NCBI GenBank assembly: GCA_027603945.1
Contig: JADIIU010000001.1
Span: forward strand, 456,120-520,119
DNA length: 64,000 bases
Source: Terramyces sp. JEL0728
Taxonomy: Eukaryota > Chytridiomycota > Chytridiomycetes > Rhizophydiales > Terramycetaceae
Direction of reading: 5' to 3'
In this document: positions 1 through 64,000 of the stretch, one piece after another
How positions within the stretch are numbered: position 1 is the first letter of the stretch
Layout of the letters: each line of letters starts with the position of its first letter
Translations under genes and position numbers: made by a program
The notes under the pieces: generated by a model
Databases searched by the model: none
The model's input: only the letters and a program-made list of their open reading frames with translations
What the model was told of the DNA's origin: nothing

Positions 1-2512
1 TATTTCGTTGGTTTGCCACGGTTTAGGAGGACTCTACGCCAGATATGCTCTGATGTTGCTTCACAAACAAAACGTTATCCCAGGAGATGTTACACCGCTT
101 AATTTTATTACCATCGCTACACACCATTTAGGATCTCGATATTATTACAATACGCTGGGAAAAGATCTGCAGGCGTTTGTGTTTGGAATCATCCTTGGAC
201 AGACCGGCAAAGAATTGCTGCTCAGGGACGATGAAAATAACCCTATACTACTACAAATGACAAAGCGAGAGTTCTTGGTCCCATTGGATTTGTTTGAGAA
301 ACGTGTTACATATTCCTACTGCAAAAGCAACTCTTCGTCTCAATACCGCACATCTTCACTGAAAAGACGAAGTACGCTTAATTTATCTGGCCAGAAACCT
401 GTCGAGTCTTCTCAGCCACATATAGTAATAGATACAGAAAAAGAAATGATGGAAGATCCAGAGGAAGATAATCACGAAAATACGATTCTCAATGCTCTAG
501 AAAGACTGGATTGGATAAGAATGGCCATCGTTTCTGGAAAATCCATTTTCTCCAGTGTAGATATGTCAAAGTCCGAGTTTTGGAAAACCAAGAATGCATA
601 TCCTGTAATGCAATCTGTTGCAAGCCAGTTCGAAAGCCATTTAATTGACGACAAGGAATTGGAAAAGCCAGCGATACCTCCAAAAGGCGATGTGCATCTG
701 GTGGTGCTGATTCATGGGCTGGATGGATTCAATACGGATCTCGCGTTTATTGGTGCTAGACTAAAAAGCCGATTTCTTGGTCCACTGTTTAAATTATTAG
801 CTCCAGAATGCAATCATGGAAGAACTTATGACGGCATCCTGGCTGGAGCAACAAGGATCTATCAGTGTGTCCAGGAAGAAATAAAGCAAACAAATGTGAA
901 ATTCATATCCGTCGTTGGACATAGTTTGGGGGGAATGTATGGAAGATGTCTAATAGGGCTAATGTATCAAGATGGTCTTATTCCCAACAAAATCCAGCCA
1001 ATCAATTATATTTCCTTGGCAACTCCCCATCTAGGATCTCGAGAACACGGAAAGATATTTGGAGAAAACGTTACATCTGCTGTGCTGGGAACATTTATCG
1101 GCAATACTGGTAGAGGTTGAATTGTTTTAACAAAAGAGTTAATGCTGGCAGATGGAAATGAGTCGCAAGTTCCATTTTTATTAAAAATGGTCGAAGAGCC
1201 GTTCATCAAACCGCTCACGTACTTTGTCAAATTGATTGTATACTCTAATGTACGGCATGACGCTTCAGTTCATTATTCAACTGCAGCAATTAGAAAACTA
1301 GGCCAATTTCGAACAAAAGTTGACGTGAGTCTTCTTTCGCTGCCTGCTATTATTCCAGACGTTGCAGAAGAAGAAATCCCTGTAGTACCCCCTTACACTG
1401 CAAACGGAAAACTCCCTTGGGAAGCTCTAATGTTAAATACGTTAATTACGCTGCCATGGAAGCGGTACGCGGTAATTCCTACACGACCGCTTCTCGCACA
1501 CATTGATATTATTATTAAATCGGAATTCCTAAATAGAAAGCACGGGTTTCCTATCATTACCCACCTGGTTGATCATTTTCGTCAACCGATTGATGGCCCG
1601 CCAGATAATATCGAAGAAGAACTGCCATCACCTGTGCAACAATCTAAGGTACACTTGATTCTACTTCTTCATGGAATAGACGGAGTTGGCCATGACATGA
1701 TTTTCCTGGCAGAAAAACTACGAGACAAATTCCCACGGCCAAATTACAAAATTTCAATTCCAACGTGCAATGATCATAAAACAAACGACGGTATTGTTGC
1801 TGCATCTACAAGGTTGCTCAGTTGGATACTTGAAGAAACAGAAAAGAGCAACGCTGATAAAATATCTTTTGTATGTTATTCGATTGGAGGGTTATACACC
1901 CGCTACTTACTAAAAATGTTGGAGGATGAGCAAGTTATTCCAAACAAGTTACAGCCAATCTTCTTTATTACAATCGACACTCCACATTTAGGGTTTCAGC
2001 AAAGTTCGATCTCTAATACACTTTTATCGTACAAATGGCTCAAACCACTCATATCCGTCACTGGATGCGAATTAAATTTAATTGACAGTTTCTTGACTGA
2101 AGATGGAGCAGAGCAGCACATCCTGGAATATCTCACCAATGCTGATTATGTTGAACCACTTGGGCATTTTCAATATTTAGTGTTATATGGGAACATGTAT
2201 CAAGAGCGGTCCCTATACCCAACGTATTGTATTGGAACCAATCAGTACATCCCACTAATACCCCAAACCAAATTTCATCAGATCTGCACTGTTCCCTTGA
2301 CCACAAAACCAGATTATAATGACAGCAGAGAGCACAAGATGGCTTCTGTTCTTTCACAACTCGCCTGGAAACGATTTATAATTGTGCCCGCGAAAACAAT
2401 AATTCCTACTCCCCCAGATCAATATTTTATTGACAACTCTGACCATCCTCTCGCTGACCATATTGTTACTTTTATGACAAACAATATTGATCGACCTAGG
2501 TCACCGATATAG
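1..2512 (+). CDS. Tandem DUF676 (putative serine esterase/lipase-like) protein, 5'-truncated
   Basis: The coding frame is open from the window edge, so the N-terminus is missing. Two exons are joined across a 21-nt intron (1116-1136): the first ends in frame ...GNTGR and continues ELMLADGNE, matching GQTGKELLLRDDENN of the previous repeat. The protein has three copies of a DUF676 / alpha-beta hydrolase unit, as in ROG1-type lipases and FAM135. Nucleophile elbows are seen as CHGLGG (near the start), GHSLGG (about 915) and CYSIGG (about 1880). The first unit has Gly in place of the catalytic Ser and the third lacks the first Gly, so only the middle unit has a canonical GxSxG. Function as a lipid ester hydrolase is inferred from family. 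It ends 13 nt before the convergent stop of the next gene. Confidence 0.75.
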
Positions 2513-2525
2513 GAATAAATCTTTT

Positions 2526-3579
2526 TTATTCTAATAGTAATTCTTTTGCCAGTAGATTAATCTCGCCATCAACCTGTTGCAACTTGGAAAACAGTACAGA
2601 TTGGGCTGGATACAATTGCTTTTTTTCTTTTCTTTCCATTTGTAAATTCTCCAACAGCTTAATCAGCAGCTCTTCATCTGGCTTAACTTTCTTTTTTTTC
2701 GTCTTGGTATTGGAGCTTGACCTTGACCTTGTTGGCGTTCTGCTTGGCGTTCTGCTGGTAGATTTGATTGGTGTTTGCGAATTTGATTTAGATTTGAGCA
2801 TTGATTCGTATTCATTCTTTAATATTCTTCGTACTTGCTGTTTTTGAGCGTACTCCATCATTTTTTCTCGTTTATTCGATTGGTGTGGTTGCGGTTTCGT
2901 TACACCCAGCCCTTTTACGTGCTCTTTCCAATTGGTAATCTGCTTGATTTGGGTCTGGAGAGATAGGATCTTTTGGTCCTGTTTGCGCTTTTCCTGGACC
3001 ATTAGCATCACTGTTTCCTCTGCGCCATTGAGTTTTTTGGCGAGTGAGAGAGCTAGATTCTCTGAAGTCTGTCTCTGTTTTTCAGTCTTAGCTAATCTTT
3101 GTTTTAACAACTCTCGCTCTGCTTGTTGATGTGATATTAAATGATGTTGGTTTAGTAGGATAGTTCTAACATCAGACATTGACTTTAGAGTTGAAGATGC
3201 CCAGTCAATCAAACGCTGGTTAGAGACAATATGTCTAGAATCTAATCTAGCCACAGACCCTCTTGCCTGTGTAAGAGCATCCAGTGTAGAATCGTAACGC
3301 GATAACAATGACTGGAGAATTGCCAGAGTAGTTTCGACATGGAATGATGGCATATCCGGGCCATTCTGATTTGGAATTTGAAAAGAGTGGAACAAATCTA
3401 TTAAATTATCCAGTGGAGCTTTTAGATTTACGACATGCGATAAATCGATATCCTGTTCATCCTGCCATCTATGTAAAGTTGTCTCGCGTTTAATGCCTTG
3501 TTACCTGAAAGTCTGCTTCCAAATGTAATAATTTTGCATGTGCATCCATGCAGTTGTTGTCTAGCTTTGTATCTTTCAT
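2526..3579 (-). CDS. Coiled-coil protein of unknown function
   Basis: The model starts at the ATG at 3579; 25 codons are joined across a 22-nt intron (3483-3504) to one long exon. The joined frame reads ...LHLEADFQ then TTLHRWQDEQ with no stop, which supports the splice. The protein is about 344 residues: a helical N-terminal half, a Lys/Glu/Gln-rich coiled coil (about residues 150-240), a Ser/Thr/Arg-rich linker with repeated TPSRTPTR-like motifs, a run of Lys, and a short C-terminal helix ending KELLLE. I recognise no family. The TPSRTPT repeats look like proline-directed kinase sites (inference). It is convergent with the DUF676 gene. Confidence 0.6.
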
Positions 3580-4757: not shown

Positions 4758-4878
4758 TCTTATTGCGAGTTTAAATTTCTATTTGATTTGGGCTAGCTTT
4801 GTCGTCTAGACTGTTCTTTAGTAATCCAGTGTCGACGGTATCACCAAGCTTCTTAACTCCGAAAAAGCGAATCACAGA

Positions 4879-5763: not shown

Positions 5764-5920
5764 GATGTGGATCAAAATAAATTTGTATAAACAAAATCAT
5801 TTCAAAGTATCCATTGATATTCCATGGCTAACCAATTCACTATTTTTAAACAAATAGTGAATAACTGGTGGACACACTCCTCGAGGGATCCAAATCTCGA
5901 TTCGTTTAGTCCAAGTGACC

Positions 5921-6185: not shown

Positions 6186-6935
6186 CTACTTTTCACAAAT
6201 ATCCAACCAAATAGTAAATATCTCAAAGAACACCGCAGACAATTTGTCCTTTTGTTCCATCGCAACGTCCACTGCCCTATCAATTGATTTTTTCAGTGCG
6301 TCTTCTGACATGCCCATCAATCTATCTTAGTTTCAATTACTGTGCTGCTTGAAAATCAATCTTGTTCAAAAAGAACACTCTACACTGGTTCAGATCGCAA
6401 TCTTTGTCGTTCTGGAATTCTTTGGTGATGTCATATAGAGATTCAAATAAATCTATGTTAGCAATCGTCTACTGTAGTTTGTTAAATAGCTGACAAAGTA
6501 TTTCCTGAACAACCCGACTTCTGTGGGCTGCATCGACAGCACTAGGTTTCGGATATTCATTGCGGTATTGTCATTCTTGTATATTATCGCGTTACAAAAC
6601 AGTTCAAAGGTTATGCTGGGAATATCAGGCGATACTAGTTCTGCGAATTGATGGACTTCGAATGCTGAATAATTTGATAAATGAACAATATCCAGCAATT
6701 TCATCGCAAAGCACTTGCGGTTATACGGAGTTGCGTTGATATACTGGTATTCCCTCCCTAGAATATGCTCTCCTCGATTGGCCTTGTCAAAATACTGATG
6801 TAGAAACAGAACTTTGTTTACCGGTTTTTTCAGTCTAATTAAATGGAGCGCATCTTGAATGTAATACTCCAGAGAGTGCTTTATGATGTATTCAAATGAT
6901 GTCTGATAGACTTTTGCAGAGTCAAAGCTGGCCAT
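6186..6935 (-). CDS. CSTPP1: CSTPP1 (C11orf49) homologue, centriolar-satellite/cilium-associated protein
   Basis: The ATG is at 6935; three exons are joined across a 20-nt intron (6453-6472) and a 19-nt intron (6322-6340), with the stop at 6186. The N-terminal block (residues about 13-75) closely follows animal CSTPP1: EYIIKHSLEYYIQDA, then a QYFDKANRGEHILGREYQY segment, then INATPYNRKCF, the order and spacing I know from the human protein. In animals CSTPP1 is a centriolar satellite protein linked to the tubulin polyglutamylase complex. The splices restore the frame into NLFESLYDITKEF and then QLMGMSEDALKK. The gene shares a 136-bp divergent promoter with CSN4. It is one of several genes here expected only in an organism with centrioles or cilia. 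Confidence 0.75.
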
Positions 6936-7071: not shown

Positions 7072-8237
7072 ATGAATCTTGAGCAGCTAACGCAAGTTCC
7101 AGCCAAAGACAAACCAGCAGCTTACAAGCATTACATCCAGACAATCCTAGCAAATCAACCACTCGATCAAATCAAATCATTTCTGCACCATTCGATCCAA
7201 GACAGTTTAGGACTTGTACTTTCCCGACAGATTTTCAACGACTTTATCGCTACATTTGATTCAACAAGGGATAAAAGTATTTGGGTTTATGCTCTTGAAC
7301 AACTATCGTCTCGTCAAGTTCCATTTGAAGAACAAATTTCAGTGATTAGGGAAAAATTGGCTGATATCTACCAGGAAGACGAAAACTGGCAAGAAGCTGC
7401 AAATGTATTACAAGGAATCCCAATGGAATCAAGCTCAAGAACGATTTCCGAAGATTACAAGATCAAGATTTATTTGAGAATTGTGCAATTGTTGCTGGAA
7501 GTTGAAGATAACGTTAGTGCCGATGCCTATTTGAATAGGTAATTTTGTTTAATGGTAGAGCTACGTTATTGAACCCCCAGGATAAGCAAATGGCTATATT
7601 GTTGCTCGCATTGCAGGCAAGATCGCTGGACTTTAAGAGGCAATTTGTGCCTTCAGCATTAAAATATTTGGAGCTGTCATACATGGTGGAAGTTGACATC
7701 GGAGAACGATTGGCCGCCCTAAAAAGTGCGATTACATGTGCTATTTTGGCAGGAGCTGGACCCCAAAGATCAAGACTTTTGGCAACGTTGTACAAGGATG
7801 AACGTGTCAGAGAATACAGTGAGATGAAAGAAGGCGGAGTTGCAGATATTCTGGAAAGAATGTATTTGGGAAGATTGTGTAACGATCAGCAAGTTGCTGA
7901 ATTCAGAAGCACGCTAAAAACCCATCAGCTTGCCCAACTAGCCGATGGATCTACAGTTCTCGATAAAGCAGTAATGGAGCACAATCTATTATCAGCATCC
8001 AGACTTTACAATAACATTACTTTCCGCGAGCTGGGCAATCTGCTCTCGATTTCTCCTGAACAAGCAGAAACTGTCGCTAGAAAAATGATTTCAGAAAAGA
8101 GAATGTCTGGGCAGATTGACCAAATTGATCAGTTGATTTACTTTACAAAGACCAATCCATTGGAAACTTGGGATTCCCATATTGCTGGGTTGTGCCACCA
8201 ATTGGATGGTATTGTCGGTGAAATATGGAGAAAGTAA
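7072..8237 (+). CDS. CSN4: COP9 signalosome complex subunit 4
   Basis: The ATG at 7072 ([10 protein letters not shown]) is preferred over upstream non-ATG codons. A 20-nt intron (7539-7558) interrupts the conserved motif: exon 1 ends AYLNR and exon 2 continues ATLLNPQDK. The protein (about 382 aa) has helical TPR-like repeats followed by a PCI/winged-helix domain ([22 protein letters not shown]), typical of CSN4. CSN4 is a scaffold subunit of the deneddylase that acts on cullin-RING ligases. Length and motif order match the family. It is divergent from CSTPP1 and convergent with the RhoGAP gene. Confidence 0.88.
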
Positions 8238-8314
8238 CATATGCCTAACTTAGATACCCAGACTGGAAAGGAAACGCTGTCTAATATAACATTAAATAAA
8301 ACTGTTTGTTTATT

Positions 8315-10569
8315 CTATGAATCGGTTTCAAAAATATGGTCAAACTTTGAAATTACAATTTCAATAATTTTGCTTTGGTGTTTTAGATCATTAGGGTCAG
8401 GGATACCGCCAGAATCTATTAAAGTAGGTCCCCAAACGATACCAAGGTTCGCGGGGCTCATTTTGTTCTCGCTGTCCAGAGCAGCTACTTTTGACAAGTG
8501 GAGTGTGAGGTATTTAAGAGTTGCATAGTTTGCATCGTGTAATTCATTAATAATTTCGTGAATATGGATTAGTTTTGAGGTTGGTTCTTCAATCCCTAAT
8601 ATTAAAAGCAAATTACTTGCTGCATCCAGCAATCGTTTGTAAGCAGCTCTTGGGAATAGCGGGTCAGCCAATTCTCTAAAGAATAGCTTCAAGACACCAG
8701 TTACCGCATGGACATCTTTAACGATATTTTCCAAAGGGAAATTAGGCTCCTTGTCTAAGGATTGCTTTGCTTGTTGAATCTCTGACCCGCTTCCAGAAAG
8801 TCTATACAATCCTTCTTGCCCCAGTCCACTGGCCTCAATGTACTCGATACAATTCATTACCAGCCTTGGAGTAGGTTCTTGTGTTGGATGGGCTTCCATT
8901 AAGTCAACTAAAGTAGCGCCAAAATATTTGTTTGCAATTTGTGCTTTGGGTGAATATGATGTTGGCGTAAGAGGTACGTTTGGCAAGCTGGTGTGGGTTT
9001 TCTATTGTTAAACCAGAAATACGTATGGGACATATTGGTGATCGGATTTGTTTACAGGTTGTTTTCTGCTCAAAGAGTAGTGGTCAAGGAATCCTTGGAA
9101 ATCTTGAGAATTGTCAATCGCCTCAACCCTTTGCAATAATCCGACTTGCATTAATCCAAAATTACTTTCACTAGTTTGATCTAGAGGACTAAGAGTGGTG
9201 GCTTCCACCATGACGAGCGACTCAACGCATTTGGCGTACTTTACCAAATACTTTTGAAGTCCGTCATCACAATCTGCGTTGGTTTCTTTGAGCAACTACA
9301 ATTAATCGTGAACTACTCTAACATAACGAGGCAAATGGTTTTGAAAGTACTGCTGGCGGGCTACATTTGCTTTTTGCAACCACATTTTATAGTTTTCATT
9401 TGCAGAAGAGGCTTTATGGCGAGCTTCTTCCTCACTACGAGGTCTTTTAACTTCTTGCTGGATCCGATTTTTCAACATCAAGAATGGATTTTCTTTCGGT
9501 CCGTTGTTTGACTTTTTCGCAAATGGATTGACGTGAGCATCGGGGTTTTGGGCCCTTTCCCAATCTTCCGAAGAAGATTCAAACTTGGACCGTGCTTTTT
9601 CCAGCCCAGCTTCAATGTCGAGCAATTCCTTGTGTTGTTTTGCAGCCCCATCCTTCAACTACCGTTAGGATATAGGCGATACCTGCTTGCGGCTTCTTTC
9701 AGTGTTTTTGTATAAAACTTGAATGTTATCTGCCATTTCTGATATCGAAGAAGCAAATTGAAGCCGTAACTCTCCAAGACGGTGATGCATTTTGCCAAAG
9801 TCATTCCAATTAGATTCATATGAACCCCCTTTTCCTTTTTCACCAAACTGGTTTACTTTCTGGAAAGTACCCAGCCTCATCATTTGGTGAGCATACTCTG
9901 TCTCGACCTGTGCTCTCCTTTTCAAAAAAGCTGAAGCGTCTTTTGCACTGACCATGCTTTCTTTAACTCTATTAAGCAGCAATTGAAACCCATCCTAGAA
10001 TTACGCTCTAGTTACTTCATAATCGCATAAAAGCTTGATGACTTGGTCTTCCCTCTCTTCAGCTTCTTCGGCGTGCAACTTTGCCATTGAAACTTCAAAT
10101 TCCAGCGGAGACTTTGCAGTTGCCTCTGCAGAAGACATGCGTTGTGGCAATGGAGGTCTTGGACTGGTACTTGAAAGTGGGCCAGCGCTCTGTCTTGAAG
10201 GTATTTGAACTGACAATGGTGACGGCTTCTTATCAATCGATAGAGCTTTAACTGTCGACTCGATATCCTTTGTTGCCAAATCAGTCCCGAATAAATATGA
10301 ACCAACAATAGACTGTCTCTTTAAAGTATTTTCAAAAGATTCTTCGGCTGCAGTCGATACTTGCGGAATTACTATATAAATCCAAAAATACCTTCCTCTA
10401 TTGGCAAATGGCTGGTAGATTCACTGACGTTCAAGTATCCAGAATATAGTTTGCTTTTCTGCTTTTCTTCTTCCAAATATGAGCGTGTAGAATATGAATC
10501 TGTAAACTCTGCGTCTTCGCTGTTGGAAATCCTTGGTGATGGCGGTGCTTTATCCCTTCCTGAAATCAT
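8315..10569 (-). CDS. F-BAR and RhoGAP domain protein (Rgd1-like)
   Basis: Six exons run from the ATG at 10569; introns are at 10372-10391 (20 nt), 9995-10015 (21), 9659-9682 (24), 9296-9316 (21) and 9002-9022 (21). The order is a Ser/Pro-rich N-terminus with EDAEFTDS-type acidic patches, an F-BAR domain (DGFQLLLNRVKES ... FLKRRAQVETEYA ... YFQNHLPRYVRLLKE), and a C-terminal RhoGAP domain whose catalytic Arg is in GLYRLSGSGSE. The order F-BAR then RhoGAP is that of yeast Rgd1, which binds curved membranes and turns off Rho GTPases at polarity sites. Each splice restores the F-BAR reading frame. All four introns of length divisible by three carry an in-frame stop. Confidence 0.85.
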
Positions 10570-12187: not shown

Positions 12188-12250
12188 TAAATTGTATATT
12201 ATTTTATTTCAATTCTTGGTTCTTGGATTTGAAGAATGTGTAATGCAGTG

Positions 12251-12944
12251 TTATTTCTTCAACGTCCTTCTGAGGTTAGCTACAGTTACCATCCATGGAT
12301 CTGTAGAGAACTCTGGGTCAATGAAAAAGAAGACGGGCATGTCAATCTCATCTCCTGCCTGCAGCATCTGTTCCTCAAAGCAAAAGCATTGGATCTTGTT
12401 GAAATACTGCGCGGCTTTGTACGGTATAACGGAATAGGTTGATATCCCTATTATATCTTCCTTTGTAGGGTTCTTGGCTTTGAAAAAAGTAAGAGCAGTT
12501 TCCCTGTATAAGTAATATTTACCCAGGAACGACTGTAATCCGTTTAACTTCTGGGGTAAATGACCACGGCATTTCGTCAGAAACGCTAGAGTCAAAATGT
12601 ATCTTGATTGGTCTTGCATACTTTGTTGGCGACAATTCCTTCAGATCAAATTTAGTCCCTGCACCAGTCTTTGGTGTTCCATCGTATCCCGTAGTTGTAC
12701 CTGAATAAAAATCAAATTACAGAATAATTGGTACAGCGGGACTGCTGCAAATGAAGCTCCAAGAAAAAAGATTATTATTGACACTCCATAATTTACTGTT
12801 GTTTGAATTGATTTTGCTGGGTTAGAAAATTGCACCTTTGTCTGGATGAATTCTGGACGAATAGAATTGCGGTTTGATTAATGGTTTTTGGAATTGGCTG
12901 ATAAATAATGGAGATTTATGAATTGCTCTCGTTAATCGAAACAT
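12251..12944 (-). CDS. COX11: Cytochrome c oxidase assembly protein COX11
   Basis: Four exons run from the ATG at 12944; introns are at 12817-12835 (19 nt), 12701-12720 (20) and 12504-12522 (19). The model begins with an Arg/Lys-rich, acid-poor presequence (MFRLTRAIHKSPLF), then one membrane helix ending AAVPLYQLFC, and an intermembrane-space domain with WSFTPEV, VVPGETALTFFKAKNP and the copper-binding FNKIQCFCFEEQ. The invariant CFCF cysteines are present. COX11 delivers copper to the CuB site of COX1. The plain ORF view breaks the gene in three places; the spliced protein follows the family end to end. CACGTG at 13104-13109 is upstream of the start. Confidence 0.93.
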
Positions 12945-19147: not shown

Positions 19148-19159
19148 TAAAATTTTATT
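19146..19159. terminator. Palindromic bidirectional poly(A) signal
   Basis: A 14-bp perfect palindrome, AATAAAATTTTATT, spans the 7-bp gap between the stop codons of the FN3 gene (plus, stop ends 19147) and TTC16 (minus, stop ends 19155). It offers AATAAA to both transcripts and overlaps both stop codons. Function as a shared signal is inferred from position. Confidence 0.6.
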
Positions 19160-25309: not shown

Positions 25310-25399
25310 AGTATTAGCTTGTCTTAATATACTGCTGATTAATAACTAGTACCCCCGTCGCTTTATCTCACTCATACCGCACCCTGCCTCTTTGAAAAA

Positions 25400-25412
25400 A
25401 AGCATTTAAATA
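25400..25412 (+). promoter_or_regulatory. TATA-like element of the 25441 gene
   Basis: A GCATTTAAATACC string ends about 28 nt before the ATG. Its placement resembles TATAAA elements 30-31 nt ahead of two other start codons in the window (35215, 60254), implying a very short 5' leader. Confidence 0.35.
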
Positions 25413-25440
25413 CCGGTACCGCTCTGCAATAGTTGGTACA

Positions 25441-48529: not shown

Positions 48530-48826
48530 TTACAAATCAGTCAACGCACGTACCGAACCATCTTTTTCAATATAAACGCCTTCAACGACTACGCTGTTCA
48601 ATACGGAATCCGGAATTTCAACTTTAGCGATATTTGAGATTGTATATCTATATCAGCAGTAAGTTACTGTTCCAAAATCTTTCCTCCTGCTTTTGTGATT
48701 GATTCCAGTGATTTTTTGAAATAAGATTCTGCGTAGTTGTCCTTGAGAGTAATCAGGTAGACTGGTTAACGACTGCTTACTATTATTGGCTGCTAATACA
48801 GTTGTGAGGAGCGAAACGAATTTCAT
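48530..48826 (-). CDS. Secreted peptidase-inhibitor I9-like small protein
   Basis: This short gene has three exons, invisible as a single ORF. ATG 48826, introns at 48762-48780 (19 nt) and 48648-48667 (20), stop ending at 48530. It encodes about 85 aa: a signal peptide (MKFVSLLTTVLAA), then YLITLKDNYAESYFKKSLES, ITKAGGKILEQ|YTISNIAKVEI, PDSVLNSVVVEGVYIEKDGSV. The I9 layout (strand, helix, GGKI, strand, helix, strand ending in a V-EKDG turn) matches subtilisin propeptides and yeast Pbi2. No protease domain is attached, so it would be a free inhibitor or chaperone. A signal peptide on a Pbi2-type protein is unusual. Confidence 0.65.
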
Positions 48827-50833: not shown

Positions 50834-51698
50834 ATGCAAATCATTCCTTCAAGTTTCTACCAAACCCAACCTTGGGCAAGCCTCAAGTTACTACCCCAAA
50901 ATGGAGATCAGATTTTGCTCTCAGCTATATTCTTTCAAACGGTATACTTGATCGGAGGGGCATTATCCAACTACAGCAATTCCTACAGAAATCTAAAGAG
51001 CTCAAAGCAAGCAAGTTGGGCAATTCACATAGGTACACTCAATTTAATTCAGTTTCAATGATTTTCTCAGTTATAATTGTAACACTAGCTTATCCATTAT
51101 TCTACGACGAAGCAATTACGAGCGACAAACTATTTGGGTACAGTGACTATTCAAGATCAGTGTATGCAATTACTTGCGGATACTTTTTGTGGGATACATT
51201 GATTTCAATTTATTATATCGGGGAAACTGGGATTCCGTTTGTATTCCATGGATCGGCTTGTTTCTGTGTGTTTTTCCTTTCTTATGTAAGCAAGAAATAA
51301 CCCTAGTTGCCGTACGTACAGCATTATGGAGCAGCGTTTTTGATGTTTGAATTGAGGTTGGTGGATAGCTAACTTAGTACGGTGTTCCTCAATGTTCACT
51401 GGTTCTGTGACAAGACTGGGTTAACTGGATCCAAGCTGCAGTGGATCAACGGAATGGTTCTATTGGCGGTTTTCTTTAGTGTTAGATGCTGTTTTGGAAC
51501 TTACAAGATGCTGGACTTTATCAGTATATATTTTTAATGGTAGTAACTGCATTCCCACATAGAGATAAAGTACCTTTTGGTGTTTTTTATACTTATGCGA
51601 CTGCTGCGACTGGTTTAGGCTCTTTGAATTTCTACTGGTTCGCAACAATGATTCGGTCTGTAATGTCCCGATTCAAGGAAGAAAAGAAAACCCAATAA
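50834..51698 (+). CDS. TLC-domain membrane protein (TLCD4/TMEM56-like)
   Basis: Five exons; introns are at 51033-51052 (20 nt), 51286-51306 (21), 51357-51377 (21) and 51524-51543 (20). ATG 50834 is the first Met in the frame that joins; the start is uncertain because another open frame overlaps upstream. The protein shows several membrane helices and TLC features: SKQASWAIHI|VSMIFSVI, YFLWDTLISIYYIG, IPFVFHGSACFCVFFLSY, VQHYGAAFLMFELS|TVFLNV and HWFCDKTGLTGS, ending LNFYWFATMIRSVMSRF. TLC proteins include ceramide synthases and lipid-regulating membrane proteins; the TMEM56/TLCD4 branch fits best. The stop TAA lies in AATAAA. Confidence 0.78.
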
Positions 51699-52313
51699 AC
51701 TAGTGTTTTGTCTGACAATAAGCAGTCAGGTTTGTGACGCTTAATAATCTGATTTAGATAACAGCCGCGACTTTCGTGGTTTATACTAAAGATCCGCAAT
51801 CAAATATACAGCCGATTAGACTTGCCCGATATACCTATCGATAGTCGAAGGTTCAACAATCGTGCAGGTCCAACAATCACCTGCCTAAATAACTGTGAAT
51901 CATATGGATTTGATTTGTGATTTCGCGAGGGGTAGGGGACCTGACGGTTTCAAATTAATCAATCGTAAATTAAATTCTCGTAGTATACTTGGTTTCAATC
52001 TAAATTGGGATTAAGCGGCAGGGTTCACCAAATTTAATTTGCAAGTCTTTGACAACCAAAGACTCGGCCATTGCGGTTTGCATTAAGCCAGTTAGGTCCC
52101 TGGTTGTGACACTGGTAAACTCATACGAGTACAAGATTGGCTGTCAAATGATTACATGAGTTGAGCCCATTGATTGAATTATGCAATCGAAAGCATATTT
52201 GGTCATGATAATGACAGGTGCTTTCAAAGTGAAATTGACGTCATCGAGTCTTTCGTTCAGATAGAGCCATCTTCAATACAGTCAAAATGATATGAGTTTA
52301 TTAAAAAATGTAG
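51699..52313. other. 615-bp convergent gap, possible structured RNA
   Basis: Both flanking genes end here, yet other convergent gaps in the window are mostly 7-80 bp. There is no coding frame of note. A perfect 8-bp stem with a 5-nt loop (AGTCTTTG-ACAAC-CAAAGACT) lies at 52044-52064, flanked by GCAA/TTGC. A second hairpin GCAGGT/ACCTGC sits near 51864. A CRE palindrome TGACGTCA is at 52236-52243. I cannot match it to U1, U2, U4, U5, U6, SRP or RNase P. Confidence 0.35.
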
Positions 52314-53363
52314 TTACTCAGCAAAACCAGCAATATAGCAGGCACTAGTTATTCTGGCAGTATGGCGTTTTAATGCATCCTAAGATAAAACAATAATTAC
52401 CATTCTAGAGAATCTTTTTCCACATCTTTGACAACCAAACGGTTTGACATCTGAATGCAAACTTCTTTGATGCCTCTTCAAATCATGAGATCTTCTAAAT
52501 GCTGTACCACATTCTTGGCAAGCGTAATTTCTTTCTGTATGGTGTATTCTCGAGTGTGATTTCAGGTTTGTTTGTTTAGTGAAAATCTTTTGACATCCAG
52601 GAAAAGTGCATTTAAACGCACCTTCCTGCTGTTGCTGTGCCTGCCATTCGTTTGGGTTGTATGAGGAGTTTGTGTTGTTGGTAGACCATGAGGCTAGGGA
52701 TGAATCGGAACCAGAGTGTTTAAGAGATTTACCATTGAACTTTAGCGGATTTACTCTAGTATGAGGCATGAGGTTTGGCGAGTAATTATGAGGTTGTTCG
52801 TGATATTGCTCTTGAAACTGTACTTGATTTTCCATTTTCATCCAAGCGTATTGTCCTTGTTCGGATGGAGAATATCCAGCAGAATAATTTCCATCGAAAC
52901 TGGCAGAGTGTTGTCCGTCGTAACCGGCAGGTTGCTGCGGTTCATATCCAGCTGAATGTTGGCCATCGTGGTATAGGTTACTATTTTCATGGATGGCGCC
53001 AAGGTATAATGAGTTTCCATAATTACTTTCATTTTCATATGCTGACTGTGGTTCTGGAATCATATCATAACTTTGCATGTGGTTGGTTTGAATCGCAAAA
53101 GGATTTAACCTTTCAGCTGGCGTAACAGGTGGTGAAATTAAACTTTGAAAGTCGGGCATTCCATTAACTTCAAAGTGTGCTGATAGAGGTACATCAGAGC
53201 GCATTAGTGGTGCACTCATTGGCATATATCTGAGCGAAGGGTCGCCATTCTTGTCAGCAGAGTTTGGAGAAATTGGGGCTGTATTTACGTTTACATTTAG
53301 CGGTGCTAAAAATTTGGATTCCCAATTATTTAGCATTTCGTTGCTACCCAAATCCATTTGCAT
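52314..53363 (-). CDS. C2H2 zinc-finger transcription factor
   Basis: Two exons from ATG 53363, with an intron at 52380-52400 (21 nt). The N-terminal 230 residues are Asn/Gln/Ser/Tyr-rich with repeated blocks of the type AGYEPQQP, AGYDGQHS and ASFDGNYS. Three fingers follow: CTFPGCQKIFTKQTNLKSH, CQECGTAFRRSHDLKRH and CQRCGKRFSRM|DALKRH. The splice supplies the helix of finger 3; without it the finger is cut. Finger 3 has a Cys rather than a second His in the expected zone (HTARITSAC). The layout resembles fungal Crz1-like factors, but the orthologue is not certain. Confidence 0.8.
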
Positions 53364-54550: not shown

Positions 54551-56329
54551 ATGGATGCACTCAGGAACCAGTATCTCAGCTCACTACAGGAACTTACATT
54601 CAATTCCAAACCAATTATCACAAATTTAACAATAATTGCCGAAGAAAATCTCGCCAATGCCCCTGTAATTGTACAAGCGATAGAACAGCAACTTAGTAAT
54701 GTAAGTAGTTTAATAGAAATCTATGTTTAATTTTACAATTCAGTTTCCCTATAAAAATATATATTTATTCTAGGCACAACCTGGGTTTGTAATACCTCTG
54801 CTCTACCTGATGGATTCGATCCTAAAGAATGTGGGAAAAGGTTACGTTGCTGCATTTCAAAAGAACCTGGTTCGGGTGTTCTCTGATGCGTATACTAAAG
54901 TCAATGATGCCGACAAAGCAAGATTTCAGGTTGGAATAAAATGTTTTTTAATTTCTAGAGGACACTGCAGACTTGGAAGGCGACTCCTGGCGGTTACTTG
55001 TTTCCATCGCACGTTATTGCTGGAATAGAACGAGCGATTAATGTTGCAAATCTACCTCCTGTTGGCTACATTATGAATGTAATTGATACATAACGATAGA
55101 ACGGACAGAGACCTCCGGCTCCATTGCATTCTCAGGCTGCTAAACCTCCGTTGACCCAAGCTCAAGTTCTGCAAAGATTGACCAACTTGTTGGGCCAAAA
55201 GAATGCGCTGATGATAGGCAATCCTAATAACTATCAGCGGGGAAACGAAATAAATATTTTGACACAGGTTGCGATAATATTAACCGTAGCTTTTAGAAGT
55301 GGTGCAATCCACGGCTTTAGATCCAAACACATTAGGGCAAATAAATTCAAAAATAGATAATATGGCACTAGCAGTTCAGAAAACACCTCCAGTTTCTGCC
55401 ACATTGGTTACATCCTCAATGATTTCTGGTCGCAACGGTAATCATTTGCCTATTTCAAATACCTTGGGGATAGGGCTAAACAAGAATGGAATAGCTGGTT
55501 TAGGATCTACAGGACTTGTAGCGCAACTAGGATCAACGGCTGGTTTGAATGGACTTGCGGGAGAAACTGCTGGATTATTAGGACAAAGCATTTCAGCAAA
55601 TACATCAGGATTAGGAATGTTATCAAGCACACTAAACACATCACTACTTTCAAATCTTAATTCATCCTCACTAACAGGGCTGCTTTCAACTCTAAATAGC
55701 TCTGCACTACTTTCAATGACAAAATCAGATCAAACGGTTCCTGTGATTCAAATGACACAATCTGAAATCACAAAGCCAATAAAGAAACTTTATAATATTT
55801 TGTACGACGATATCAGATTGCAGTGCAAGCAGTGCGCGCTTCGATTCCCTGGCGAAAACGGCAAAGAAGAATTAACAGCTCATCTTGATTGGCACTTTCG
55901 AAAGAATAGGAGAAAGCATGAAAAAAAAAAAACTTCAAGTAGAGAATGGTACTTGACCGATCCAGAATGGGTTATCGAACAGCCAATCGAGCCAACTGAA
56001 AATCAAGGTTACGCACTACTAATAATAGCCGCTCCTGTGTTTTTTGATCAAAGTAAAGAGCCAGAAGTCGAAGTACAAGCGTGTATCCCCACGTCAGACC
56101 CAATTAACAAGTGCGAGATATGTAAAGAAACTATTGAAAAGTTTTACGACGATGATCATGACGGATGGATGCTTCGCGGTGCCGTTAAGTTCAATGAATT
56201 GGTAATTGTAGCTGATTTTAGTATTATCATCAAACGTGTTACAATGACAAGCAAGAAACCCCCTCGCTTCCAAAAAGAACTCTTGATAACGAAGATATGG
56301 AGCAAAGTAAAAAAATCCGTGTTCAATAA
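54551..56329 (+). CDS. PCF11: mRNA cleavage and termination factor PCF11
   Basis: Six exons from ATG 54551; introns are at 54701-54773 (73 nt), 54930-54958 (29), 55079-55099 (21), 55268-55289 (22) and 56202-56221 (20). The N-terminal CID reads LQELTFNSKPIITNLTIIAE, LLYLMDSILKNVGKGY and QTWKATPGGYLFPSHVI. A Leu/Gly/Ser/Thr low-complexity stretch follows. Zinc modules are then LQCKQCALRFPGENG, LDWHFRKNRRKHE, SREWYLTDPEW and CEICKETIEKFYDDDHDGW, completed by YYHQTCYND after the last intron. PCF11 binds Pol II CTD phosphorylated on Ser2 and couples 3' processing to termination, of interest in a genome with almost no 3' UTR space. A leader intron may lie at 54511-54531. Confidence 0.93.
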
Positions 56330-56468: not shown

Positions 56469-58223
56469 ATGTCACGAAAGGATATCGCTCGACAGTTTAG
56501 CTTTGCAAACAAATTGATTGAAGTTTCAGATAGCGAGGCAGTTTTGGATTGGCCAGAACCTATTATACCTCCTAAACACGTTTTGCCGGATTCAAACGAA
56601 CGCGACTACCTACCGTTAATATTGAATGCAAGGGTATACGACGTTGCAGACGAAACTCCGCTTACCCATGCACGCAAAGTATTTGGTTGTTAATGTAGCT
56701 GTCCAATCGATTGGGTAATATGATTTATATCAAGAGGGAAGACACACAACCAATTTTTTCGTTTAAATGCAGGGGAGCATTTAATAAAATGTTCAACTTG
56801 ACTAAAGAACAAAAGATCAAAGGTGTCTGTTGTGTATCTGCAGGCAATCATGCGCAAGGTACTTTTAATTGACAAAAGGAGTAGCATTGGCAGCCCAGAA
56901 ACTAGGCATCTCGGCAAAAATTGTGATGCCAACATTTGCTCCAGAAATCAAAGTAGAAAACGTAAAGAGATTGGGGGCTAATGTCATCTTGTTTGGAAAT
57001 AACTTTGACGAAGCTAAAAAAGAATGTATGAGAATATGCAAAGCCGAGGATTTGACATTTGTCCCTCCCTTTGACGATCCATACGTAATTGCTGGTCAGG
57101 GGACGGTTGGAATGGAAATTTTGAATCAGATTAGACAAACTAGGCTAGATGCCATCTTTGTGTGCTGTGGAGGCGGCGGGTTGATTTCTGGCATTGCTGC
57201 ATATGTCAAAAGAGTTCGACCAGAAGTAAAGATTATCGGCGTGAACACCATTGATTCTGATAGTATGTACCAGTCATTGTTGAAAGGATCTGCAGTGGAA
57301 ATCAAACAAGCTGGACTGTTCTCTGACGGAACATCCGTACGACTTGTCGGATCTGAATGTGCAAGGATCTGCAAACGAAGCGTAGACGACATGATTCTAG
57401 TTTCAAACGAGTAAATTTAATTAACCGCAGTGAAATCTGTGCAGCAATCAAAGATGCGTTTGACGACTGTAGAGCAGTCCTCGAGCCTGCTGGTGCATTG
57501 GGCATAGCAGGGTTAAAGAAATACCTCATACAATACCCAGAGCTACGAGGCGGTGTGTTTGTTGCTGTTGCATCAGGTGCTAACATGAACTTTGATAGAC
57601 TTCGATTTGTCACTGAAAGAGCATCCATGGGCCAAGGAAAGGAAGCATTATTATCTGTAGTAATCCCAGAAAGGTCTGGAGCACTTCGTGATTTGCACAA
57701 TGTTGTTACACCACGTTCGGTGACCGAGTTGTCTTACCGATACTCTACTTCAAAATTTGCCCATATATTTTTAGGGTTTGACACTAAAACTCCAGATGAG
57801 GTATTCGAAATTTAAAATAGGCGTTCCCAGTTATTGATCAAATCAACTGCATGGAAGGATACGAGGCCATCAACATCAGTGAAAATGATATGGCTAACCA
57901 ACATATTAGGTACCTGTCAGGTGGCAGATCAAATATTGAAAATGAAGTCTTGTGTAGATTCAAGTTACCAGAACGACCAGGTGCGCTAAAAGATTTCTTT
58001 GCCATTGTCCCTTCCGAATCAAACATCACACTTTTCCATTGTAAATATAACTAATTCAGATCGCAATCATGGGTCAGATTTTGGAAGGGTTTTGGTTGGA
58101 TTCCAATTCAGAACATATGATGTGAAAAAGAAACTAGAATTCTTTACGAAAATGAAGGAAGCAGGCTACACGGATGTGGTAGATGAAGGAATGAATCCGG
58201 TGTACAAGCATTTCCTCTTGTAA
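56469..58223 (+). CDS. ILV1: Threonine ammonia-lyase (threonine deaminase)
   Basis: Six exons from ATG 56469; introns are at 56679-56698, 56859-56878, 57411-57430 and 57801-57820 (20 nt each) and 58041-58059 (19). The PLP-lysine block is [27 protein letters not shown] and the glycine loop [10 protein letters not shown] bind phosphate. Two C-terminal ACT-like regulatory units follow ([33 protein letters not shown]). It makes 2-oxobutanoate, the first step to isoleucine; the ACT domains imply feedback control. I see no strong presequence at this start. Every splice restores a conserved block. Confidence 0.95.
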
Positions 58224-58403: not shown

Positions 58404-59720
58404 TTAAGCGTCAGAGACAGAAAAGGTCATACCAGCATTTCTTAAACGGATAGCATATGCCAATCCCATAGCAGCAGCTGGTGTGACAACTCCACCTTCG
58501 TGTAATTTGAATTGTCCAACAATAGAAGGATCCTTGAACTTTCCTTGATCCAAGACAAGTGTGAGAGCAGCTTCAGAAATCATTTTTGCAGTTTCAGCGT
58601 ACCCTGGATCATCAACGCCTTTGACTACTGCTAATGCTCCGATATTCTTTCCGGTGTTCTATTATTAAATTTCAATTACATCAGTAGCTTCGCCAAATAA
58701 TTTGCAGGTAAAGTGCCCGTTCTTTCTAGCCTTTTCACTTGGGCCAGTACCAGGCGGCATGAGGTAGTTTACTAATCTTCTAGCTGGTCTTAACAACATC
58801 AATAATGCGACACTGTAGAAAATCACTGTAGCAAAAGCAGCAACCACAACGTTTGGAGCTCTGGTTCCTTCACAATATTGGAAGCTTGGGCCGTATTCCA
58901 AGAGATAATTGGATCTTCTGACATTTCTCAAGTTTGCAATTTCCATAAAGAATGGAAATTGCCAAACCTTGAGTCCTTTGTCATAGTACAGCCCAGCACT
59001 ATTCCAAGTGGTTTTGTTTGGTTGTTTAGGAGTAAGATAATCTGGGTTTGAAGATAGTTGCATCAATTCCTTGAGAGAAAGTTCATCAATCATGTTGGTA
59101 CCAGAAGCCAAAGTACCACCAGAAGCTCCGCCAGAGATTTTCCATGCAGAATACCTTACATTGTTGGTAGTGAGCCCTTTTGATCTAAAGTGGTTGGTAA
59201 TCAGCAAAGTTCCGATATCAGATGGGACAGAATCAAATCCAGATGAATTGATAATTAAAGTCTTGTTTTCAACAGCTTTTTCATGATACAAATCAACTAT
59301 CTTTTTAACAAAATGAGGTTCGCCAGTCAAGTCCAAGTAATGTGTTTTGAAACGAACACAGGCATCCACTAATGTTAATTCAAAAAACCTAATGGAAAAC
59401 CGTACTTGGCATAAGGACCTACAGTGGTAATAACTACTTTGGCTTGAGCAACAAGCGCGTCCAATGATTTCTGATCTGCAGAGTCGGCAACAAGTGTCGG
59501 AACACCGTTGGCAAATCTCTCTACTTTATCAAGTGGTTTGATCATATCTGCGATTTCAGAAAGCTTGGATTTACTTCTCCCGGCGATTGCAAAAGTTACT
59601 TGCTTTGGTGCATGAACTGTAAGATATTCTGCAACTAGCCGTCCTATTATGAGTATGCTGATTGCCTGTGAATCCTGTAGCTCCCCATACAATAATATCG
59701 TAGCTTCTTTTTTCAGACAT
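58404..59720 (-). CDS. Saccharopine dehydrogenase-like oxidoreductase (SCCPDH family)
   Basis: Four exons from ATG 59720; a GC-AG intron (59644-59665, 22 nt), then GT-AG introns at 59369-59388 (20) and 58659-58679 (21). The Rossmann start IIVWGATGFTG|RLVAEYL is rebuilt by the first splice; VVITTVGPYAKYG, THYLDLTGEPHFV and INSSGFDSVPSDIG are SCCPDH signatures. A membrane helix (VVAAFATVIFYSVALLML) precedes the C-terminus. The family sits on ER/lipid droplets in animals and plants; it lacks proven saccharopine dehydrogenase activity. Confidence 0.9.
59644..59665 (-). other. GC-AG mini-intron (22 nt) in the SCCPDH-like gene
   Basis: The border after GATGFTG begins GCAATCAG and ends CTCATAATAG. 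Removal gives GRLVAEYL, as in the family; retention shifts the frame. This is the second GC-AG case among about 87 mini-introns. Confidence 0.8.
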
Positions 59721-60253: not shown

Positions 60254-61486
60254 ATGTCAACAGAGCAGGAACAAGCGGATAGGCCAGAAGTAAAGCCACA
60301 GAAGAAAGTGTGGTACGAAGTCGTTATCATCCTCACATTTGTCCACTTGGTTTCCATCTATGCATTGATTTATCATACTCCAAAACCAGCTACCCTTTGG
60401 TTGACTTTCTTGACTTGGGTGTTTGGAGGACTTGGCATTACCATGGGTTACCACAGACTTTGGTCTCACAATTCATATAAGGCTGCATTCCCTGTTAGGT
60501 TGGCACTAGCTCTTATGGGGACACTGGCATTTGAAGGATCCATTAAATGGTGGTCTCTTCGACATCGTTTGCACCACAGGTACGTTAAATATTAACAGCA
60601 GATACACTGATACCGAGCATGATCCTTATGATGCCACCAGAGGTTTTTGGTACTCTCATATGGGATGGATGTTTGAAAAGAAAACCTATCCAAGAATGAA
60701 ATGGATTGACCAATCGGATTTGAATGAAGACAAAGTTGTCCAGTGGCAACACAAGCATTTTCCTACTCTTGCCCTTGTTTTGGGACTGGTGTTACCAACT
60801 GCCTTGGGATATTCTTGGGGTGATGCGCTAGGAGGATTCTTGTATGGCGGCTACATTACCAGAATCATATTATGGCACACTACATGGTTCATTAATTCTT
60901 TGGCACACAGCTGGGGAGAACAAGAATATTCCAATGAAAACACATCAAGAGGCAACCTTATATTGGCGCTCTTCACAATGGGCGAAGGACATCACAACTA
61001 TCACCATGAATTCCCAAGAGACTACAGAAACGGTATCAGAGCTTTGGACTGGGATCCAACAAAGTGGACGATTGCCTTTTTCTCGTTATTCGGAGCTACT
61101 TACAATCTCACCACTATTCCAGATCAAGTAGTTCTCAAAGGTACTTTACATTAACATTAGCAAGGATCAACACTGCTCAAGATGAGATCAACAGGCTGCG
61201 AAAACTATGTATCTGGAGCGACGAGGCTGCCTTCCCAACTTGGACACTGGAAGAATTCCACAAAGAATGCGAATTAAACGAGCTTGTCATTATTGACGGA
61301 TTTGCTGTTGATGTGTCTGAATTCAAGGATGAACATCCTGGGGGTGAGAAGCTCTTGACAAACTATCTCGGTAAAGATGCTACCAAATCGTTCCATGGTG
61401 TGCTTAATAACCACAGCAAGAGTGCGCGTCAATTGATGGGAGATTTGCGTGTTGCCAAGGTTCAACCTAAATTCAAGGAAGAATAA
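60254..61486 (+). CDS. OLE1: Stearoyl-CoA (delta-9) desaturase with C-terminal cytochrome b5
   Basis: Three exons from ATG 60254; introns are at 60580-60601 (22 nt) and 61141-61160 (20). The three His boxes are HRLWSH, HRLHHRYTD (rebuilt by the first splice) and HNYHHEF. Membrane helices flank them. After the second splice a cytochrome b5 domain follows with the heme motif HPGGEKLL and distal FHGVLNNHS. The desaturase-b5 order is the fungal Ole1 arrangement, which supplies its own electrons for 18:0 to 18:1 conversion in the ER. The stop TAA forms AATAAA. Confidence 0.95.
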
Positions 61487-61952: not shown

Positions 61953-63587
<1,635 letters not shown>

Positions 63588-63640
63588 TAAAAAAGATAGG
63601 ATTTTTGTTTCTAAAATACACTTTGAAAAAAAAAATTATT

Positions 63641-64000
63641 AGCCAATCAAATCGCGGCTGGGAAAGCTAAATTTTGCTGGTGTTTCAAAACTGTGGATCT
63701 GGATCAAATTGCTTCTGCCCATTGAAACATTGCTATATGCTGTTAAATCTTCCTTGTGGAGAGTCCTTGTTCAAGTAGAGCACATTTCTCTGCCAGCTGG
63801 AGCACCAGTCGACATGAGAATGGTGACTGCATTGTTTTTCAATGCACAGAATTACAGGTCTGATTCGTAAATGGCCTTATGCTCGATTAGCTGGCAATTA
63901 GGCTGCAAATACTCATTATCATTGGAATGCAAATACTCATTATCGTTGGACAGACTACTTTGGAAGAAGTTTTTGTGAAGCTCATCAACGAAGCAGATGC
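63641..64000 (+). other. Window edge: possible start of an unresolved gene and 24-bp tandem repeat
   Basis: From about 63900 a plus-strand frame reads QILIIIGMQILIIVGQTTLEE then VFVKLINEAD to the window end. TTLEEVFVKL resembles a conserved block after the nucleotide-binding domain of ABCA-type transporters, but no other ABC motif is present here. Two 24-bp near-identical units (63906-63953) underlie the duplicated ILII. Upstream frames (DMRMVTALFFNAQNYRS) are short. I do not call a gene. Confidence 0.25.

Follow-up and report, generated by a model that had tools for sequence, protein, structure and literature searches.

Predicted near-minimal spliceosomal introns of 19–22 nt in a chytrid fungus, Terramyces sp. 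JEL0728

We found that the predicted short introns in a 64-kb stretch of nuclear DNA from the chytrid Terramyces sp. JEL0728 (the whole stretch analyzed; hereafter, the window) are, judged from the sequence, very probably U2-type spliceosomal introns of near-minimal length (19–22 nt, mode 20). The gene model was trained without a splice motif, from a flat start with intron length uniform over 12–100 nt; GTA...YAG borders and lengths of 19–22 nt emerged unprompted from this motif-free EM in the window, with the borders one base out of register. These lengths accounted for 92.8 of the 122.8 expected introns (19 nt, 15.9; 20 nt, 35.6; 21 nt, 30.9; 22 nt, 10.4), the next length being 16 nt (5.2), and 90 introns had a posterior above 0.5. 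A later run predicted 100 introns at this threshold in the window, 91 of them 19–24 nt long with GT/GC-AG borders. With borders clamped towards GT/GC-AG, the figures were 98 and 92, and 77 of the 81 introns with a posterior above 0.9 were 19–24 nt long. Among 43 non-redundant gene models, 33 carried introns, and 93 of the 97 introns were 19–24 nt long, which bears out a preliminary description of this DNA that had placed 87 introns of 19–24 nt in 30 genes (Table 1). A larger sample, analyzed with clamped borders, covered 299 kb (~2% of the 15.0-Mb assembly), at about 1.3 predicted introns per kb. At a posterior above 0.9, 320 of its 332 introns were 19–22 nt long (mode 20; 245 of 251 outside the window), the pattern of an ultrashort-intron genome, in which nearly all lengths fall within a few nt and below ~25 nt, with the qualification that the model under-detects long introns.

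Table 1. Predicted genes and introns in the window (window positions; intron lengths in brackets, nt).
Gene	Position	Strand	Introns	Support or remark
Gene model, cut at window edge	2..2509	+	1116-1136 (21, unusual 5' end)	posterior 0.90
Gene model	2529..3579	-	3483-3504 (22)	
Gene model	6189..6935	-	6322-6340 (19), 6453-6472 (20)	
Gene model	7072..8281	+	7539-7558 (20), 8234-8253 (20)	both also in motif scan
F-BAR/RhoGAP gene	8318..10569	-	8596-8616, 9002-9022, 9145-9165, 9296-9316, 9659-9682, 9995-10015, 10372-10391 (7 introns, 20-24)	model and homolog alignment
COX11 gene	12207..12944	-	12270-12289, 12504-12522, 12701-12720, 12817-12835 (19-20)	model and Pfam
DNAAF11 gene (axonemal)	13141..14443	-	13790-13810, 13951-13969, 14221-14239, 14408-14430 (19-23)	model and Pfam
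Gene model	16418..19144	+	16691-16711, 16814-16835, 16969-16989, 17061-17082, 17221-17241, 18038-18059, 18390-18409, 18710-18731 (8 introns, 20-22)	
Gene model	19158..20960	-	19599-19618, 20127-20146, 20492-20512, 20802-20820, 20910-20928 (19-21)	
Gene model	21314..23007	+	21342-21362, 21698-21719, 22139-22159, 22958-22979 (21-22)	
Gene model	23126..26103	+	23804-23823, 24245-24264, 24348-24367 (20 each); 25299-25402 (104)	104-nt call doubtful
Gene model	26211..27618	+	27256-27275, 27332-27351 (20)	
Gene model	28480..29742	-	28695-28714, 28942-28961, 29419-29438 (20)	
Gene model	29782..32045	-	29972-29991 (20), 31983-32003 (21, GC-AG)	
Gene model	35972..37896	-	36869-36889 (border uncertain), 37175-37194 (20)	
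Gene model	38444..39059	+	38634-38652 (19), 38884-38904 (21)	
Gene model	39090..39462	+	39234-39253 (border uncertain), 39358-39377 (20)	
Gene model	39499..40283	-	39580-39598 (19), 39794-39812 (19, weak)	posterior 1.0 and 0.59
Gene model	40444..41235	+	40573-40592, 40747-40766, 40847-40867, 40920-40938, 41006-41027 (19-22)	
THYN1-like EVE-domain gene	41271..41839	-	41451-41469, 41620-41640, 41695-41713 (19-21)	model and Pfam
Cytochrome b5 / acyl-CoA dehydrogenase gene	42008..43610	+	42168-42189 (22), 42362-42381 (20), 43565-43586 (22)	deposited protein and homologs
Large C2-domain gene, presumably tricalbin-like	43653..48393	-	44159-44177, 45042-45061, 45338-45359, 47298-47319, 47591-47609, 47834-47855 (19-22)	
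Small gene model	48533..48826	-	48648-48667 (20), 48762-48780 (19)	
RACK1 gene (presumed)	49287..50712	+	49396-49465 (70), 49607-49795 (189), 50071-50295 (225)	long introns, hand-placed
Gene model	51058..51369	+	51286-51306 (21)	
Gene model	52147..53363	-	52380-52400 (21), 52271-52317 (47-nt call)	
PCF11-like gene (presumed)	54551..56326	+	54701-54773 (73), 55079-55099 (21), 55271-55289 (19, GC-AG), 56202-56221 (20)	
ILV1 threonine deaminase gene	56469..58220	+	56679-56698, 56859-56878, 57411-57430, 57801-57820 (20 each), 58041-58059 (19)	Pfam and homologs
Gene model	58407..59720	-	58659-58679, 59369-59388, 59644-59665 (20-22)	
Fatty acid desaturase + cytochrome b5 gene	60254..61483	+	60580-60601 (22), 61141-61160 (20)	model and Pfam
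Gene, which we take to be DEAD-box helicase-like	61956..63587	-	62351-62371, 63262-63282 (21)	

The same EM procedure applied to 50 kb of E. coli DNA returned 24 'introns' above 0.5, with other borders and without a length peak; by our own reading, 21 of the 24 lay between genes, at an annotated gene end or no more than 20 nt from one, whereas 3 lay inside genes. Three intron-free simulations yielded 0, 0 and 1 introns. Individual calls below a posterior of about 0.9 are each uncertain. The counts above include at least one false intron, a 22-nt call at 49338-49359 (posterior 0.90; 0.72 clamped) that is coding in the RACK1 reading, and a 76-nt AT-AG call at 4754-4829, which joins two genes, is probably an artefact. 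In-frame stops within introns were counted and are given no interpretation, as an intron that contains a stop is easier for the model to detect.

The borders and interiors of the introns were highly regular. When the model was seeded with GT-AG and left unclamped, 283 of 291 introns in 264 kb were GT-AG and 2 were GC-AG; with clamped borders, 328 of 332 in 299 kb were GT-AG and 3 were GC-AG. The 5' site consensus was GTA(A)(T)T and the 3' end was YAG. A YTNAY-like branch motif was present in 318 of 324 introns (177 expected from shuffles) and was concentrated at one place: 13 or 14 nt preceded the branch A in 268 of the 318, whereas 200 shuffles of the interiors gave a mean of 39.7 and a maximum of 58. 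The tail after the branch A was mostly 5 or 6 nt and ended in YAG, so that the 19–22 nt length range is nearly the sum of two narrow spacings. In the window, the motif GTAA-N7/8-TAAY-N1-4-AG occurred 33 times against 1.85 by chance, a count reached in none of 100 shuffles, whereas neighboring spacings were near chance (shorter, 4 vs 4.80; longer, 24 vs 19.03), and 31 of the 33 exact-spacing motifs began at model introns. These results agree with the GTA... start and the TTAAC/CTAAT-like sequence shortly before the AG that had been described earlier. U12-type (minor) introns, which carry the 5' site [AG]TATCCTT and a long branch motif, were rejected as an assignment, given the 5' consensus and short branch motif seen here.

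The 19–22 nt intervals might instead be fragments of longer true introns, or have been produced by the length prior. A trained model does prefer the lengths on which it was trained, and ours overlooked or misread the introns of the presumed RACK1 gene (70, 189 and 225 nt), which, when spliced by hand, has a single open frame and reads as a complete RACK1-like protein. We nevertheless consider this reading very improbable: training began with all lengths equally likely and still gave the peak, exons align to homologs over most of the junctions tested, and one spliced protein equals a deposited protein. The earlier statement that short introns occur throughout the window was slightly too strong, since the RACK1 introns and a 73-nt intron of the PCF11-like gene are longer, and its main content holds. 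These few long introns suggest that longer introns can still be removed by the splicing machinery. The PCF11-like gene was split into two in the non-redundant set, and reading by eye gave a 29-nt GT-AG intron (54930-54958) where the model placed an AT-AG border (54936-54958). RACK1 also contains a repeat (identity 58/62).

Splicing of the cytochrome b5 / acyl-CoA dehydrogenase gene gave a protein identical at 513/513 residues to HDV01_000255 of Terramyces sp. JEL0728, a deposited predicted protein, not an mRNA. In pairwise alignments, its junctions were gap-free in 114/115, 116/118 and 34/91 spanning homologs, the weak one lying at aa 505, and those of ILV1 in 114/115, 119/119, 119/120, 85/116 and 115/116, the weaker one lying at aa 424. 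The spliced F-BAR/RhoGAP protein matched Boothiomyces P0241 (701 vs 700 aa, 92%) with no internal gap and all 7 junctions gap-free; in the more distant relatives P0242-P0244, 5/7, 3/7 and 4/7 were gap-free. Pfam domains confirmed after splicing uphold the names COX11, THYN1 (EVE domain), ILV1 and DNAAF11 proposed from the sequence, and reading by eye agrees with PCF11. The organism had been called flagellated and fungus-like; the axonemal DNAAF11 supports the former, whereas the 513/513 identity makes it a true chytrid (Rhizophydiales, Fungi) and not merely fungus-like.

Indels introduced by sequencing or assembly could in principle mimic such introns when bridged by the gene model, and so could decayed genes; assembly errors can yield short interruptions of a reading frame. 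Two contigs bear on this. Two weak matches from a U6 snRNA search were rejected as two alleles of one coding gene, which made an allele test possible. Over 9.9 kb of this contig pair, none of 7 indels fell in 7312 exon nt, 2 (both 1 nt) in 247 intron nt and 5 in 2337 other nt; the test covers one pair with two intron indels, and BLAST opened 13 gaps compared with 7 in our alignment. Introns were predicted at the same 12 places in both contigs, and the protein sequence flanking the intervals is conserved. Errors would not share GTA...TNAY...YAG at a fixed 13–14 nt spacing, nor would a sharp 19–22 nt length be expected of them, and we regard this explanation as exceedingly improbable.

We also looked for several of the spliceosome components that the preliminary description had proposed for a search. 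A U2 snRNA (140.2 bits) with an intact branch-binding GUAGUA segment was present, as were the genes for SF1, Slu7 and Prp18, whose Pfam domains are complete or almost so once their own 19–21 nt introns are removed. Short ciliate IESs fall in a similar size range, and the putative removal from RNA rests on sequence evidence, so excision from DNA or bypassing in translation might be considered; we know of no such process in fungi, and the GT-AG borders, the branch motif, the U2 snRNA and the splicing factors indicate splicing, leaving this reading hardly any probability. U1 snRNA was not found in the genome with the Rfam U1 model, the exact 5' end or a loop pattern, searches that each have blind spots: two assume conserved sequence, and the covariance search scored 41 of 233 first-look candidates without a positive control. 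Four exact-5'-end matches were rejected as U1 after Rfam scan, sequence inspection and gene modelling. Rfam gave no match at E <= 1 in the window and two chance-level matches in RACK1, and nothing reached the gathering score in 24 other stretches; 5.8S rRNA (RF00002) was searched for and not found, and no relatives in viral contigs were confirmed.

The early spliceosome may have been re-engineered, with U1 absent or strongly divergent and direct recognition of the 5' site by U6/U5 together with intron length. A +5 G usually pairs with U1, and this position held G in only 63 of 324 introns and T in 150. U1 was likewise not found in three chlorarachniophyte nucleomorphs, where the authors allow that it could have escaped detection (PMC4494063). 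However, the U1 searches are limited as described, U6 was missed too (its two sub-threshold matches both lay inside the coding gene), and the SF1, Slu7 and Prp18 domains are standard. We therefore judge this reading to be distinctly unlikely.

Under the preferred reading of near-minimal U2-type introns, a spliceosome that is largely standard would act on the pre-mRNA by intron definition, and the fixed spacing from 5' site to branch may help it to recognize an intron. Introns this short would leave no space for a polypyrimidine tract, and U2AF is therefore probably replaced or differently used, its role perhaps being taken by, e.g., RBM17/SPF45. Deletion pressure may have shrunk the introns until they were close to the minimum on which the 5'-site and branch helices still fit together. 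A simple scheme in which a short tail makes second-step factors unnecessary is at odds with the presence of Slu7 and Prp18.

Comparable introns are known from other lineages. The earlier comparison with nucleomorphs and ciliates was right (PMC4494063, PMC9505925), and mikrocytids belong in it as well (PMC10245619). Chlorarachniophyte nucleomorphs (Bigelowiella, Lotharella, Amorphochlora) have mostly 18–23 nt GT-AG introns, 1.6–3.2 per gene, with 35.8% at 20 nt in L. vacuolata (PMC4494063). They resemble Terramyces in borders, narrow length range and rare longer introns, but are relict nuclei in which U4, and in three of the genomes also U1, was not found (PMC4494063); in Terramyces, Slu7, Prp18 and SF1 are present and the fungal assembly spans 15 Mb. 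The heterotrich ciliate Stentor has AT-rich 15–16 nt introns most often starting with GUAAUU, with the branch A at the 10th or 11th nt and a 5-nt tail (PMC9505925). The branch A is nearly fixed in both, with 9–10 nt before it in Stentor and 13–14 in Terramyces, and Slu7 and Prp18, present in Terramyces, are listed as not found for Stentor in a table of the same paper (PMC9505925). Mikrocytid nuclear introns are, like those of Terramyces, extremely uniform (16–17 nt), but belong to a parasite with 224 introns and 17–19 identified spliceosomal proteins (PMC10245619). Paramecium has very short introns genome-wide that are longer than those of Terramyces (P. bursaria median, about 24 nt; PMC12862383), and strong pressure acts on its 3n introns, which contain many in-frame stops (PMC5014332). 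A gap of about 21 nt separates the two helices in the B complex of human, and human extracts require a 5'-site-to-branch distance of about 50 nt (PMC6692369). The Terramyces spacing falls below both values, so assembly intermediates would be arranged differently, or the 5' site and branch would not be held simultaneously as in human. Human short introns that need SMU1/RED or SPF45 pose the same physical problem, because space is scant there too, either for a polypyrimidine tract or from the 5' site to the branch.

We found no report in the literature of introns of similar size in Fungi. Introns of ~15–23 nt have been described for mikrocytid parasites, heterotrich ciliates and relict nuclei, to which the predicted introns would add a chytrid fungus, a member of a group kept in culture and of a kingdom whose spliceosome is among the best studied. 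The smallest usable intron and the dispensability of U2AF, RBM17, SMU1/RED and U1 thereby become testable. Aligners and gene finders with a larger minimum intron size will misread such genomes; for example, the full-length own ILV1 protein is absent among the 120 best database matches. It is possible, though rather doubtful, that the early spliceosome of this lineage works chiefly as a ruler (13–14 nt to the branch, then 5–6 nt), with U1 divergent or dispensable, no reading of a polypyrimidine tract and Slu7 and Prp18 kept, a minimal geometry in an otherwise ordinary fungal nucleus. With predicted introns close to the shortest known, Terramyces is a candidate for testing the lower intron-size limit of the splicing machinery.

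We built a two-strand gene model in which intron length is represented explicitly and trained it by expectation-maximisation (EM) on the window, which lies at the end (456120–520119) of contig JADIIU010000001.1 in an assembly of 15,016,339 bases and 231 contigs. From a flat start, with no splice motif, intron lengths of 12–100 equally likely and codon usage taken from 18 long ORFs, EM converged on introns of 19–22 nt (92.8 of 122.8 expected introns); 90 introns reached a posterior above 0.5. Their ends read GTA...YAG in a register off by one base, a shift that is possible because G precedes many introns and either register then gives an identical product. Applied to 50 kb of E. coli, the same procedure returned 24 short "introns" above 0.5; these showed no length peak, had different borders, and most sat at gene ends or close to them. 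Three intron-free simulations yielded 0, 0 and 1. The intron signal has statistical support without assuming splice sites. Moreover, a scan of the window independent of the gene model found GTAA-N7/8-TAAY-N1-4-AG 33 times versus 1.85 expected, with model introns beginning at 31 of these 33 matches, while other spacings of the motif were close to chance (N2-6, 4 vs. 4.80; N9-28, 24 vs. 19.03).

The sample was enlarged to 264 kb (the window plus one 10-kb stretch from each of 20 contigs), and with GT..AG seeding the 291 introns at posterior >0.9 comprised 283 GT-AG, 2 GC-AG and 6 with other borders. In the final sample of 299,068 bases, with nine further loci and clamped borders, 332 introns exceeded 0.9, with lengths of 19 nt (78), 20 nt (146), 21 nt (64), 22 nt (32), 23 nt (2), 24 nt (2) and longer (8); outside the window, 245 of 251 were 19–22 nt long. 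At posterior >0.5 there were 402 introns (approximately 1.34 per kb), and rough scaling from this sample (approximately 2%) would put the total at around 20,000 for the whole assembly, which holds at least one allelic duplication. The preliminary description of GT/GC-AG introns of 19–24 nt, with TTAAC/CTAAT-like sequence before the AG, was right in substance in both observation and interpretation: length and borders agree, and a YTNAY-like motif occurred in 318 of 324 introns of 19–24 nt (177 predicted by shuffles).

Most of the introns follow a two-part spacing rule, that is, 13–14 nt before the branch A and a tail of 5–6 nt after it. Among the 318 with the motif, 13 nt preceded the A in 126 and 14 nt in 142, and 5 nt followed it in 142 and 6 nt in 119; interior shuffles gave 39.7 ± 5.6 for 13 and 14 nt together and 39.8 ± 5.5 for 5 and 6 nt together, with a maximum of 58 in 200 shuffles. 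At the 5′ site, GTA is followed by A (+4) in approximately 60% of introns, and position +5 is most often T, not G (T 150, A 69, G 63, C 42; n = 324). G+C content was 30% in these introns versus 40% in the window.

Features discussed, in window positions
Feature	Position	Strand	Observation
F-BAR/RhoGAP gene	8318–10569	−	seven introns
Three adjacent models	32965–33636, 33929–34642, 35215–35949	both strands	no predicted introns
Cytochrome b5 / acyl-CoA dehydrogenase gene	42008–43610	+	three junctions compared
Gene that we take, once spliced, to be RACK1	49287–50712		introns of 70, 189 and 225 nt required; start-to-stop open frame once spliced
False intron in RACK1	49338–49359		22 nt, called by the model
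RACK1 second intron	49607–49795		C-like box, CTGA and 7-bp closing stem by eye
Part of RACK1 third intron	50125–50273		62-nt element in two copies
ILV1 (threonine deaminase)	56469–58220	+	completely encoded; five predicted introns of 19–20 nt

Protein comparisons bear on individual junctions. The spliced cytochrome b5 / acyl-CoA dehydrogenase protein is identical (513/513 residues) to HDV01_000255 of Terramyces sp. JEL0728 (Fungi, Chytridiomycota, Rhizophydiales, Terramycetaceae). Counting homologs that span a junction without a gap within 6 residues, its junctions scored 114/115, 116/118 and 34/91, and those of ILV1 114/115, 119/119, 119/120, 85/116 and 115/116; the two low values (34/91, 85/116) belong to junctions close to the C terminus and within a region of poor conservation. 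The F-BAR/RhoGAP gene is 92% identical to a Boothiomyces protein with no internal gap and 7/7 junctions intact, and 5/7, 3/7 and 4/7 are intact in the more distant relatives P0242, P0243 and P0244. No full-length ILV1 protein of the organism itself was found among the best 120 database matches, which suggests that some tiny introns are overlooked in the deposited annotation; it may miss or break this gene.

The claim that such introns occur throughout is slightly overstated: 19–22 nt predominates, but RACK1 needs far longer ones, and in a PCF11-like gene one intron measures 73 nt and another probably 29 nt. These cases indicate that longer introns exist and are under-detected by the model. By eye, the long RACK1 introns also terminate in a TNAY motif and AG. 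The two 62-nt copies (58/62 positions equal) share one predicted fold, a closed multi-arm hairpin (−19.6 and −22.6 kcal/mol), with stabilities not clearly above chance (z −0.9 and −2.1). The element reached threshold with no Rfam family and did not occur a third time in the window, nor was its core found in 36 sampled loci. The second intron had no Rfam match and its predicted fold does not form the closing stem seen by eye, so that a C/D-box RNA is only a guess. Separately, the three adjacent intronless models appear by eye to encode similar small membrane-type proteins, a local family.

Among the splicing components that the preliminary description had singled out, we found a U2 snRNA gene (140 bits, branch-binding segment intact) and genes for SF1, Slu7 and Prp18, with full or nearly full Pfam domains once predicted introns are spliced out (19–21 nt in SF1, 20–21 nt in Slu7, and one of 20 nt in Prp18 with a GC-AG border, posterior 0.82). 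U1, and likewise U6, were not found in genome searches, which do not prove absence. The 15 Mb assembly gave no match to 5.8S rRNA either, and rDNA may be missing from it. Two weak U6 matches were rejected because they correspond to a single coding region that is present once on contig C199 and once on contig C111.

These copies (C199:1-10000 and C111:30001-40000) are 98.6% identical over 9.9 kb, and the same 12 introns were predicted in both. The model classed 9896 bases of one copy as 7312 exon, 247 intron and 2337 other. Substitutions numbered 72, 1 and 29, respectively, and the seven indels fell 0 in exons, 2 in introns and 5 elsewhere (BLAST, with different gap scoring, opened 13 gaps over the same stretch). 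A 1-nt indel in coding DNA breaks the frame; both intron indels are of 1 nt and merely turn a 21-nt intron into one of 20 nt. This support for the introns is real but small, because it comes from a single contig pair. The contigs are probably allelic, and the assembly may contain both haplotypes in places, inflating genome size and gene counts.

Elsewhere, introns are mostly 18–23 nt in chlorarachniophyte nucleomorphs (PMC4494063), 15–16 nt in Stentor (PMC9505925) and 16–17 nt in mikrocytids (PMC10245619), with a shortest intron of 23 nt in Trichomonas (PMC12316389) and a median of approximately 24 nt in Paramecium bursaria (PMC12862383). Slu7 and Prp18 are tabulated as not found in Stentor (PMC9505925), whereas Terramyces keeps both. 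Searches of the open-licence literature, including word searches within chytrid papers, found no description of introns this small in Fungi. Beyond the preliminary description, our analysis adds the spacing rule, allele and homolog support, the U2, SF1, Slu7 and Prp18 genes, the long-intron exceptions and statistics that presuppose no splice sites.

In Terramyces the intron geometry is fixed, the borders are canonical, and U2 is present together with three splicing factors; we infer that a U2-type spliceosome removes the introns under intron definition. Of the 13–14 nt before the branch A, approximately six would be taken up by pairing at the 5′ site and a few more by pairing with U2, so that only a few would stay free. 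In the human B complex the two helices lie approximately 21 nt apart, and efficient splicing requires approximately 50 nt from 5′ site to branch (PMC6692369); therefore, the human arrangement is not simply transferable. Likewise, U2AF65 is described as recognising eight or nine pyrimidines (PMC8363638), for which a tail of 5–6 nt is too short.
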